From an uncultured Mycoplasmatota bacterium (GTDB lineage: Bacteria; Bacillota_I; Bacilli_A; RF39; UBA660): 44,653 bases of DNA. Positions 3,197 to 6,270 of this stretch are shown here, piece by piece. The notes under the pieces are model-generated. The model was not told the origin of the DNA. It ran no database searches and was given only the letters and a program-made list of their open reading frames with translations. Every line of letters starts with the position of its first letter. The stretch's first letter is position 1. The stretch is from NCBI GenBank assembly GCA_948434005.1, contig CAOJEH010000005.1, positions 87,372 to 132,024 on the forward strand, given 5' to 3'. The position numbers and the translations under genes are program-made.

Positions 3197-3955
3197 ATGA
3201 AGGCTTTAATAACTGGTGCATCTAGTGGTATAGGTTTTGAAATAGCTAAGTATTTAGCTTCTAAGAAATTTGAATTAATTTTAGTTTCTAGAAATAGAGA
3301 AAGATTAGAATTAATACAACAAAAACTTCCAACTAAGACAACAATTATTGTTATGGATTTAAGTAATGAGCAAAAAGTAAAAGAATTATGTGTAGTAATT
3401 AAGAATCAAGGTGTTGATATGCTTATAAATAATGCCGGATTTGGAAATTTTGGAGAATTTTTTGAAACTGATTTATCTAATGACTTAGATATGATTAATA
3501 CTAATATAAAAGCAGTTCATATTCTAACTAAATATGCTTTAAAAAATATGATAAAAGAAGATTCTGGCTATATTTTAAATGTAGCATCTTCAGCAGCTTT
3601 TGTTCCAGGCGGACCTTTGATGAGTACTTATTATGCTACTAAGTCATATGTATATAAATTAACTGAAGCTATTAATTATGAGTTAAAGAAAAAAAAGAGT
3701 AATGTAGTTGTCTCAGTTTTATGTCCAGGCCCTGTAGAAACTAATTTTAATAATGTTGCAGGAGTAAGCTTTTCTACTAAACCTTTAAGTGCTAGTTTTG
3801 TAGCAAAATATGCAATAGATATGATGATGGATAAAGAAAAAATGTTAATCATACCAGGTGGGAAGATGAAATTAGCAAAATTCTTTAGTAGATTTTTATC
3901 AGATAGGATGTTACACAGAATAACTTATAGAATCCAAAAGAAAAAGGCTAACTAA
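3197..3955 (+). CDS. Short-chain dehydrogenase/reductase (SDR)
   Basis: This is a classical SDR of 252 aa, an NAD(P)H-dependent cytoplasmic oxidoreductase. The cofactor motif G-A-S-S-G-I-G lies at residues 7-13, N-N-A-G near residue 79, a Ser around residue 132 (V-A-S-S-A-A) and the catalytic Y-Y-A-T-K-S-Y pair near residue 146. The P-G-P-V-E-T motif follows. Basic residues after the second strand (S-R-N-R-E-R) favour NADPH. The C-terminus is Lys/Arg-rich, as in YqjQ/DltE-type members that act on lipids or long-chain substrates. GAGGTGA precedes the ATG. It has its own promoter and a terminator overlapping its stop, so it is monocistronic. Confidence 0.9.
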   Translation: MKALITGASSGIGFEIAKYLASKKFELILVSRNRERLELIQQKLPTKTTIIVMDLSNEQKVKELCVVIKNQGVDMLINNAGFGNFGEFFETDLSNDLDMINTNIKAVHILTKYALKNMIKEDSGYILNVASSAAFVPGGPLMSTYYATKSYVYKLTEAINYELKKKKSNVVVSVLCPGPVETNFNNVAGVSFSTKPLSASFVAKYAIDMMMDKEKMLIIPGGKMKLAKFFSRFLSDRMLHRITYRIQKKKAN

Positions 3956-3989: not shown

Positions 3990-4769
3990 ATGTCAAAGTT
4001 ATGTATTAAGAATTTATCTTATGAATCAATATTAAAAGATATTAATATAGAATTTAAAGAAAATAGTATTAATTATATATCAGGTTCTAATAAATGTGGT
4101 AAAACTACACTTATTAAGATTTTATGTGGTCAAATTGATATAAAAGAATCAGTTTATTATGACAATAAAGATATTTATAACTTTAGCTCTTATGAATTAT
4201 CAACTGTTTTTGGTAGAGTATCTAACAGTATGAATAATACCTTTTTAACAATAGATCAGGAATTATTATATAAACTAGATAAATTAGGAATAGATAGAAA
4301 AGAAAAAAAGAAAAGATATAATGAAGTAGTTAAATTATTTAATTTTTCTGATATTTTATATTCAAATATCAATGAATTATCTATTATTAATAAGATAGAA
4401 CTTTCTATAGCCATTTCATTATTATCAAAACCAGAAGTTATATTCTTAGATGATATCTTTGCAGAAGTAGATTATCATATAGCAAAGAAAATATTAACTA
4501 AACTAAAAAGTATTAATAATTTAACTATTATACTTACATCAAATAATTTAGAATTATCTACTTTGTCAGATAAACTTATAATTTTAAATAATGGTGAAGT
4601 TGTTTTAGAAGGGGATACACCTTTAGTATTAAAAGAAGATAGTCTTTTGAATAAAGTTGGTTTAGAAGTTCCTTTTATGATTGATTTATCTATTAAACTA
4701 AAATATTATGGCTTATTAGATGATATAGAACTAGATATGAATAGGATGGTAGATAAACTATGGAAATAA
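3990..4769 (+). CDS. Degenerate energy-coupling-factor-type ABC ATPase (EcfA1 position)
   Basis: This 259-aa ABC ATPase sits exactly where ecfA1 lies in Bacillota, between rplQ and truA. The Walker A motif is intact (G-S-N-K-C-G-K-T-T, residues 32-40). Other motifs are eroded: the Q-loop region has no Gln, the LSGGQ signature reads L-S-I-I-N (130-134), the Walker B motif ends in D-D instead of D-E (150-155), and the switch His is replaced by Ser-Asn around T-S-N-N. Canonical EcfA proteins energise vitamin and metal uptake together with EcfT. Here there is no ecfT, and the partner gene is worse preserved. It could bind ATP without efficient hydrolysis. GGTGG precedes the ATG; it overlaps the next gene by 10 bp. 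Confidence 0.8.
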   Translation: MSKLCIKNLSYESILKDINIEFKENSINYISGSNKCGKTTLIKILCGQIDIKESVYYDNKDIYNFSSYELSTVFGRVSNSMNNTFLTIDQELLYKLDKLGIDRKEKKKRYNEVVKLFNFSDILYSNINELSIINKIELSIAISLLSKPEVIFLDDIFAEVDYHIAKKILTKLKSINNLTIILTSNNLELSTLSDKLIILNNGEVVLEGDTPLVLKEDSLLNKVGLEVPFMIDLSIKLKYYGLLDDIELDMNRMVDKLWK

Positions 4770-5518
4770 AAATAAATAAGACTTTAGTAGATTCTACTTG
4801 TATTAATGGTATTATTGGAGATTATAATACATTTGTTAATGATTTAAAAAGAATAGATTTTGATAACAATAATATTATTATAGATAAAAAGAAATTAACT
4901 AAAGAAGAAAAAAGAAATCTACATAAAAAGATAGCTATAGTAGAAAAAAATATAAGTGATAATTATAAAATATTAACTGTTTATGATTTTATGAAACTAT
5001 ATGTATTAGAAAATTACTTAATATTAAAAGATTATAAAAAGAAAATAAAAGATTCTTTAAAAATAGTTGGTCTTACTAATTATCACGAAAGACTAGTTAA
5101 TACGTTATCATCATCAGAAATTAAACTATTATTATTAGCGACAACCATGCTATCTAATCCAGATATAATAGTTATAGATGATTTATTTACTTATTTTGAT
5201 ATAAAATGGGAAAAGAAAGTACTAAGTTTATTAAATCAATTAGTTGATAAATATAAAAAAGTAATTATAATATGTACTAATGATTCGGAGTTTGTTTATA
5301 AGTATACAAAAAATTTAATATGTTTTTCTAATGATAAAATACTTATTCAAGGTAATACTGATTATTTATTTGAAGAAAATACATCTTTACTTATGAATAA
5401 TAAAATAGGTATACCTAAAACTATTTTATTTACTAATTTGGTATTAAAGAAAGATATAAAATTAAATTATAGTAAAGATATTAGGGATTTAATAAAGGAT
5501 ATATATAAGAAGGTATAG
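4760..5518 (+). CDS. Pseudo-ABC ATPase lacking Walker A (EcfA2 position)
   Basis: This is the 252-aa partner of the preceding gene, located where ecfA2 normally lies. The segment corresponding to Walker A reads G-I-I-G-D-Y-N-T-F, so the Gly-Lys-Ser/Thr that binds nucleotide phosphate is absent. A shortened signature (T-L-S-S-S-E), a Walker B-like strand (I-I-V-I-D-D) and the D-K-I-L-I-Q-G-N-T near the C-terminus retain the ABC fold. The switch His is replaced (I-I-C-T-N-D). The frame is intact over the full family length, so the protein is kept by selection rather than decaying at random. It overlaps the upstream gene and ends 8 bp before truA, where ecfT would be expected. The function is unknown. 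Confidence 0.75.
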   Translation: MEIKINKTLVDSTCINGIIGDYNTFVNDLKRIDFDNNNIIIDKKKLTKEEKRNLHKKIAIVEKNISDNYKILTVYDFMKLYVLENYLILKDYKKKIKDSLKIVGLTNYHERLVNTLSSSEIKLLLLATTMLSNPDIIVIDDLFTYFDIKWEKKVLSLLNQLVDKYKKVIIICTNDSEFVYKYTKNLICFSNDKILIQGNTDYLFEENTSLLMNNKIGIPKTILFTNLVLKKDIKLNYSKDIRDLIKDIYKKV

Positions 5519-5526
5519 GTGATTTA

Positions 5527-6270
5527 ATGAGGTATTTAATTAAGTTTTCTTATGATGGTACTAATTTTTGTGGTTATCAAACTCAACCTAATTTAAGGAC
5601 TATTCAAACTGAACTTGAAAATGCAATAGAAGTTGTTAATAATAATATAAGAAAAGTAGTTCAATCATCTGGCAGAACTGATAAAGGAGTTCATGCATTA
5701 TGTCAGTATGCACATGTTGACCTAGATATAGATATTACACCTCAAAAATTAAAACGAGCAATAAACAGTAATCTAGCAGATGATATTCATGTTATTGATA
5801 CAAAGATTGTTCCTGATAATTTTCATGCTAGATATAGTACTAAAAAGAAGGAATATAAATATTACATAAACTTAGGAGAATATAATCCAATAGAGAGAAA
5901 TTATGTATTTCAATATAATTATAAGTTAGATATTGAAGCAATGAGAGAGGCTATAAAAGTATTTATTGGTGAACATGATTTTAGAGCATTTGTTACAGAG
6001 AATAGTGATAAGCCAAATTGTGTTAGAACAATTGATATAGCAGAACTAGAACAAGTTAATGATAAAGTAGTTTTTACTTTTAAAGGTAATGGTTTTTTAA
6101 GATATCAAGTTAGAAATATGGTAGGAATACTAATAAAAGTAGGCGAAGGTAAGATAAATAAAAATGATTTAGAAGAAATACTTGAGAGTCGGGATAGAAG
6201 TAAATGTGGTGTTACTGCACCTAGCTGTGGATTATATCTAGTTAATGTTTTATATGATGATTTAGATTAG
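5527..6270 (+). CDS. truA: tRNA pseudouridine(38-40) synthase
   Basis: TruA converts uridines 38-40 of tRNA anticodon stems to pseudouridine. The 247-aa protein contains the catalytic motif S-S-G-R-T-D-K-G-V-H-A with the essential Asp near residue 53, the N-terminal Y-D-G-T-N-F-C-G-Y-Q strand, and the G-N-G-F-L-R-Y-Q-V-R-N-M-V-G helix typical of the family near residue 195. Length matches the family. An AGGTGA ribosome binding site precedes the ATG. It follows the two ECF-like ATPases directly, as in other Bacillota except for the absent ecfT. Confidence 0.96.
   Translation: MRYLIKFSYDGTNFCGYQTQPNLRTIQTELENAIEVVNNNIRKVVQSSGRTDKGVHALCQYAHVDLDIDITPQKLKRAINSNLADDIHVIDTKIVPDNFHARYSTKKKEYKYYINLGEYNPIERNYVFQYNYKLDIEAMREAIKVFIGEHDFRAFVTENSDKPNCVRTIDIAELEQVNDKVVFTFKGNGFLRYQVRNMVGILIKVGEGKINKNDLEEILESRDRSKCGVTAPSCGLYLVNVLYDDLD

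Follow-up and report, generated by a model that had tools for sequence, protein, structure and literature searches.

The window, a stretch of 44,653 nucleotides from an uncultured Mycoplasmatota bacterium, carries on its + strand the gene order SDR - A1 - A2 - truA, which corresponds to the ancestral ecfA1-ecfA2-(ecfT)-truA site (Table 1). An earlier note, made from the sequence alone, had placed two full-length genes at the ecfA1-ecfA2 position beside truA, and both points hold: TIGR04520 is the best model for each of the two proteins, with scores far under its cut-off of 315 bits, TIGR00071 identifies truA, and the two frames are intact ORFs. The SDR gene and A1 presumably share a transcript. 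SDR homologues are found at many, not all, family loci; at L082 and L084, where the pair is missing, the SDR gene lies directly before truA, its adjacency outlasting the pair.

Table 1. Features of the SDR - A1 - A2 - truA locus (positions of the window)
Feature	Position	Strand	Basis
SDR-family oxidoreductase gene	3197..3955	+	PF00106, E=1.4e-40; 34 nt upstream of A1
A1 (P0001), degenerate EcfA1, 259 aa	3990..4769	+	best model TIGR04520, 97.6 bits
A1 Walker A GSNKCGKT, intact, residues 32-39	4083..4106	+	sequence; motif kept in 57/57 long EcfT-less loci
A1 signature, LSIIN instead of LSGGQ	4377..4391	+	sequence; signature Gly in 7/57 long EcfT-less vs 17/28 EcfT+ loci
A1 Walker B VIFLDD, with Asp retained but Asp in place of the catalytic Glu	4437..4454	+	Asp in 56/57, Glu in 5/57 long EcfT-less loci
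A1 switch-His position, Ser (TSNN)	4539..4541	+	sequence; His in 1/57 long EcfT-less loci
A1 C-terminal dimerisation domain (VPFMIDLSIKL..., ...LWK)	4617..4766	+	Pro in 126/126 scored family loci; most conserved block in EcfT-less loci
A1/A2 overlap of 10 nt, translational coupling	4760..4769	+	overlap of exactly 10 nt in 116/128 loci
A2 (P0002), degenerate EcfA2, 252 aa	4760..5518	+	best model TIGR04520, 63.2 bits
A2 former P-loop, Walker A lost	4808..4849	+	sequence; intact in 27/28 EcfT+, 0/18 remnant, 9/57 long EcfT-less, 0/23 shrunken loci
A2 signature LSSSE, kept as LSxxE	5105..5119	+	50/57 long EcfT-less loci
A2 Walker B IIVIDD, lacking the catalytic Glu	5165..5182	+	sequence; Glu in 16/57 long EcfT-less loci
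A2 C-terminal tail helix DIRDLIKDIYKKV, family-specific	5477..5515	+	Lys in 123/126 family loci, 0/3 outgroup Bacilli; helix 241-251 in model
truA, marker of the ancestral locus	5527..6270	+	TIGR00071, 223 bits; starts 8 nt after A2

The motif losses described in the earlier note are borne out: A2 lacks Walker A, and A1 has LSIIN for LSGGQ, a Walker B ending in DD and a replaced switch His (TSNN). Its term "pseudo-ATPase" fits as regards hydrolysis, but A1, whose canonical Walker A had been overlooked, probably still binds ATP. The G, N, G and K of this Walker A are invariant in 8/8 aligned genus sequences, and A2 keeps LSxSE; the Walker B Asp varies within the genus, being Gly in L004 and Asn in L008. 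Since A1 Walker A and A2 LSxSE are both kept, nucleotide binding at one composite site would be possible, judging from the residues present, and only hydrolysis would be excluded.

AlphaFold2 models based on a 37-sequence alignment have a pLDDT of 92.8 and a pTM of 0.88 for A1, and 92.2 and 0.87 for A2. Foldseek places both models among EcfA/CbiO chains, A1 matching CbiO/EcfA best (e.g. 4mki_B, TMq 0.89). For A2, the only protein submitted to VIA, the best match is 8bms_A (Z 24.3, rmsd 3.5, 249 aligned), a hydrolysis-dead, ATP-closed EcfA mutant that is tied with several EcfA/CbiO chains and is not diagnostic of state. Both proteins are thus confidently predicted to have the EcfA fold with its C-terminal domain. 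The opposite charge of A1 and A2 (pI 5.3 and 9.1) was dropped as an argument because EcfT+ loci show the same.

EcfT, the third component expected at this site, is absent. A PF02361 profile search is negative for EcfT in the window genome and in 9/9 searched genus genomes, and no CbiQ/EcfT gene lies at the locus. A profile built for EcfT remnants (described below) also has no match in the window genome, so an EcfT or remnant hidden elsewhere in that genome was rejected. The absence of ecfT claimed by the earlier note, and the check for an intact copy elsewhere that it proposed, therefore come out as it expected. PF02361 detects EcfT in 67/288 genomes of the order and, among the matches listed, all are from one family. 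A class-wide sample of 149 genomes has EcfT in 130/131 Bacilli outside the family vs 8/18 inside it. The surveyed order is probably RF39 and the family UBA660.

The earlier note had also concluded that the vitamin-uptake module was lost, and the searches point the same way: besides EcfT and its remnant, no clear S component is found elsewhere in the window genome. The S-component models PF07155, PF02632 and TIGR04518 have no match there, and the single PF12822 match (25.3 bits vs a cut-off of 30.7) lies inside a 926-aa frame. PF12822 is above its cut-off in 5/288 genomes of the order, TIGR04518 is found in 4/288, PF07155 in 1/146 and BioY in 0/146. These counts cover four models, out of a larger set of S families that includes ThiT and QueT, and the models miss some real S components (6/14 PF12822 controls gave a match, four of them above the cut-off). 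Even in the family genomes with EcfT, the four models mostly detect no S component; either these components have diverged strongly or A1-A2-T itself operates in their absence.

To place the locus in its family, truA was used as an anchor. It was found in 136/146 genomes; loci from these and three from a sample of relatives gave 139 scored loci. Both ATPases are present in 128/139 and neither in 10, two of which are cut by contig ends. A2 stands alone in one locus, itself cut by a contig end, so that no uncut locus has a single ATPase. Among the 128 pair loci, 29 have EcfT, 18 have an EcfT remnant and 81 have neither; this last group divides into 57 loci with long ATPases and 24 in which A1 is shrunken to 215 aa or less. 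EcfT-less pairs with open frames occur in 41/76 genera. The EcfT loss that the earlier note described for one locus is thus real there and is not local, recurring across the whole family; with the same arrangement in 81/139 truA loci, chance is no issue. A parsimony reconstruction on the truA tree, which comprises 136 loci, requires at least 17 changes between EcfT-or-remnant and none, and seven losses of the pair. Since the tree is moderately supported (37/133 branches starred), the exact number of EcfT changes is unsure; the starred branches alone force fewer (seven, for the full-EcfT group). The named relatives (57 loci, 54 with both ATPases) are uncultured gut Bacilli/Tenericutes MAGs and Candidatus Onthousia.

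A few loci depart from the common layout. L063, an EcfT+ locus with a run of N, has a 293-aa ORF with four predicted TM segments between A1 and A2, possibly an assembly or mobile-element effect. At L236 the A1 frame is open with no ATG, GTG or TTG at the expected start; perhaps an unusual start codon is used. In the shrunken-A1 part of the family, the pair is repeatedly preceded by two small genes, one of ~100 aa with three TM segments and one of ~100 aa with one TM segment and a coiled coil (L083, L089, L093, L095, L104, L118, L119, L120, L123, L128, L136). By eye they resemble YabQ and DivIC, a hint of a sporulation or division neighbourhood.

The 18 remnants are 194-233 aa long, have a weak or no EcfT score, and are homologous to EcfT by profile. 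The first coupling-helix Arg is kept in 1/18 remnants vs 25/29 EcfT proteins, and the second in 15/18 vs 24/29. Docking to the two ATPases appears to have been lost asymmetrically (L067, L068, L073, L074, L077, L088, L092, L101, L108, L112, L137). Among the 69 searched genomes with an EcfT-less locus (G060 and up), only one, G177, has a PF02361 match (L134), which belongs to another operon that has an intact ATPase of its own as well as an S component of the FolT type. In that genome (L134, G177:C9; L135, G177:C2), the CbiQ-like gene of the FolT-type operon has one stop, and the truA-linked pair is shrunken.

Motif decay across the family is ordered. The motif table comprises 126 family loci (five were dropped) and three outgroup loci, the family loci forming EcfT+ (28), remnant (18), long EcfT-less (57) and shrunken (23) groups. 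In that order, the A2 Walker A is kept in 27, 0, 9 and 0 loci, the A1 signature Gly in 17, 0, 7 and 0, the A1 catalytic Glu in 19, 0, 5 and 3, and the A1 switch His in 18, 0, 1 and 0. The A1 Walker A is kept in 25, 18, 57 and 2, the A1 Walker B Asp in 28, 18, 56 and 6, and the A2 LSxxE in 26, 17, 50 and 20. Thus, one composite site, A2 Walker A with the A1 signature, has lost both of its halves, whereas the other, A1 Walker A/B with the A2 signature, survives up to the shrunken clade, where the nucleotide-binding halves dwindle away. In EcfT-less loci the erosion extends to the Q-loop/T-docking segment FQNPxxQ, so docking to EcfT is no longer under selection. Several EcfT+ loci already have eroded motifs; the erosion is therefore partly earlier than the loss of EcfT.

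These results bear on whether the pair still drives a cryptic transporter, through an over-diverged membrane partner or a different permease. The gradual decay of EcfT through remnants and the low sensitivity of the S-component models speak for this, as does a need for uptake of some kind in an order that, in the available text of PMC6784871, is reported to be without vitamin biosynthesis. However, the window genome gives no match to the remnant profile, the first coupling-helix Arg is nearly gone from the remnants themselves, the catalytic Glu and the switch His have gone from the ATPases, their T-docking Q-loop is eroded, and the shrunken forms, with so few A1 Walker A motifs, would have no conventional ATP binding. 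EcfT loss, the eroded Q-loop, the lost catalytic residues and the lack of recognisable S components together argue against a transporter, which we regard as unlikely.

In EcfT-less loci, conservation is highest in the C-terminal blocks of the proteins. The Pro of the A1 domain is present at every scored family locus and the Lys of the A2 tail at nearly every one (Table 1), and the C-terminal motifs stay near invariant even in A1 forms of 145-213 aa. The A2 tail helix follows the pattern D/E-L-I/L-K-D/A-I-Y-R/K and is absent from the three outgroup Bacilli; because family members with EcfT also have it, the helix is older than the loss of EcfT. In a predicted B. subtilis complex, the C-terminal domains of EcfA1 and EcfA2 touch each other, according to the accessible portion of PMC11487621.

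A1 and A2 are clearly under purifying selection. Between the window genome and its genus mate G005, the NG86 dN/dS is 0.32 for A1, 0.35 for A2 and 0.18 for truA. In 24 EcfT-less pairs, disjoint though phylogenetically dependent, the median is 0.26 for A1 (maximum 0.37) and 0.18 for A2 (maximum 0.38), with 0.13 for truA; the pairs were chosen by a truA dS of 0.05-0.9 and an A1 identity of 0.6 or more, a filter that favours low dN and so biases the values downwards. The shrunken pair L250-L251 is equally constrained (0.15 and 0.14). With values about 1.4 to 2 times those of truA, the constraint is moderate. The earlier note had asked for dN/dS as a check on decay, and no high values are seen. 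Slow decay, with pseudogenes whose frames have stayed open by chance, would account for the stepwise motif loss and for the eight uncut loci without both genes; against it stand dN/dS values far below 1 in 24/24 pairs, open EcfT-less pairs in more than half of the genera and the near-invariant C-terminal motifs of the smallest A1 forms, which make it most improbable. A purely cis role, the ORFs being kept for coupling translation or transcription into truA, draws on the 8-nt spacing to truA in the window and on the overlap of A2 with truA by a few nucleotides at many loci. Yet selection acts on the amino acids, and the deletion loci L082 and L084 join the SDR gene straight to truA, so that this reading is scarcely credible. 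Constraint at the protein level and the retention of the two genes together speak against both readings. The pair is no pseudogene, and it is not a transporter of any recognisable kind.

The pair is not universally essential, its job being dispensable in places, since both genes are missing from eight uncut loci, as the outcome of about seven loss events. The argument from co-retention is weakened in that neighbouring, overlapping genes are removable by a single deletion. A profile search for a relocated pair in nine genomes (eight of the "neither" genomes and G006) found ABC ATPases in all nine; among the matches listed, none went past position 253 of 260. A move of the pair elsewhere in the "neither" genomes seems improbable but conceivable. 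G006, a genus mate that is 66% complete, has no close A1 copy.

We think it likely that A1 and A2 form an obligate, hydrolysis-dead and probably ATP-binding EcfA1-EcfA2 heterodimer retained as a scaffold or regulator outside transport. This putative heterodimer would have outlived its own transporter after EcfT and the recognisable S components were lost. The gene overlap, the co-retention and the C-terminal conservation are indirect indications of such a 1:1 dimer. ATP hydrolysis would be impossible: neither chain retains the catalytic Glu or the switch His, and one composite site is destroyed on both halves. In the window clade, the A1 Walker A and Walker B Asp would face the A2 LSxSE, and the dimer would most likely bind ATP and stay clamped. 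It may then act as a scaffold or a nucleotide-responsive regulator, read out through the C-terminal domains and the A2 tail helix by a presumably cytosolic partner. In the shrunken clade, without an ATP site, the core job would have to lie in the C-terminal half. The computations directly give EcfT loss, co-retention, purifying selection, ordered motif loss and the fold; the heterodimer, its ATP binding without turnover, the cytosolic partner and the new role are inferred from these. The pair might instead be the inactive partner ATPase of another ABC importer, as the genome has 17 ABC-type matches, the pair's own included. But no permease is a consistent neighbour among the mapped loci, hydrolysis would have to come from elsewhere, and the pattern of loss tracks EcfT, all of which renders this very unlikely.

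Heterodimeric ABC proteins with one degenerate site resemble the A1-A2 dimer in having lost one composite site on both halves while keeping the other. Those proteins retain one catalytic site and a membrane domain; the pair retains neither. ABC-F, ABCE1, UvrA and SufC are cases in which the ABC fold acts without a permease, and they retain their ATPase motifs. No sequence or gene-context link of the pair to these four was found. With the Group II ECF module EcfA1-EcfA2-EcfT of Bacilli (B. subtilis YbxA-YbaE-YbaF; PDB 8bms, 4huq), the pair shares gene order, homology, fold and the C-terminal domain; unlike it, the pair has no EcfT, recognisable S component or hydrolysis residues, and one composite site is destroyed. 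The window thus has EcfA homologues at the ecf-truA site without two functional ATP sites. The presumed ATP-clamped state is proposed by analogy with EcfAA' with the Walker B Glu changed to Gln, which the available part of PMC10368641 describes as trapped in an ATP-bound, closed form. That mutant (PDB 8bms) is hydrolysis-dead with a retained ATP site, as the pair appears to be; it differs in being engineered, in having ATP at both sites and in the presence of EcfT. Searches of the open PMC literature, whose scope does not extend to subscription papers, yielded no account of an EcfA1-EcfA2 pair lacking EcfT. One Alicyclobacillaceae species with a deletion of ecfA1A2T, all three genes being lost, is mentioned in the accessible text of PMC8046335.

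RF39 is described, in the available portions of PMC6784871 and PMC13155120, as genome-reduced and without several vitamin and amino-acid pathways. The present results sharpen a paradox, in that a lineage, presumably the same one, described without vitamin synthesis in the former has dismantled its usual vitamin importer. Automatic naming of these proteins as ECF transporter ATPases would wrongly imply vitamin uptake. The family offers a natural stepwise series, from active transporter through EcfT remnant, permease-free dimer and half-size dimer to deletion, which shows how an ABC motor can persist after the loss of its engine. A hidden non-transport function of EcfA1-EcfA2 becomes testable, and the findings also bear on ECF proteins as antibiotic targets. 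We give even chances to the broadest reading, that in a whole family of gut Bacilli the motor of the ECF vitamin importer has become a hydrolysis-dead heterodimer that works without a permease and serves a new cellular function, apparently tied to the C-terminal domains and the EcfA2 tail helix. Since the tail helix is already present in members with EcfT, this second job may predate the loss of transport and may then have permitted the repeated loss of EcfT.
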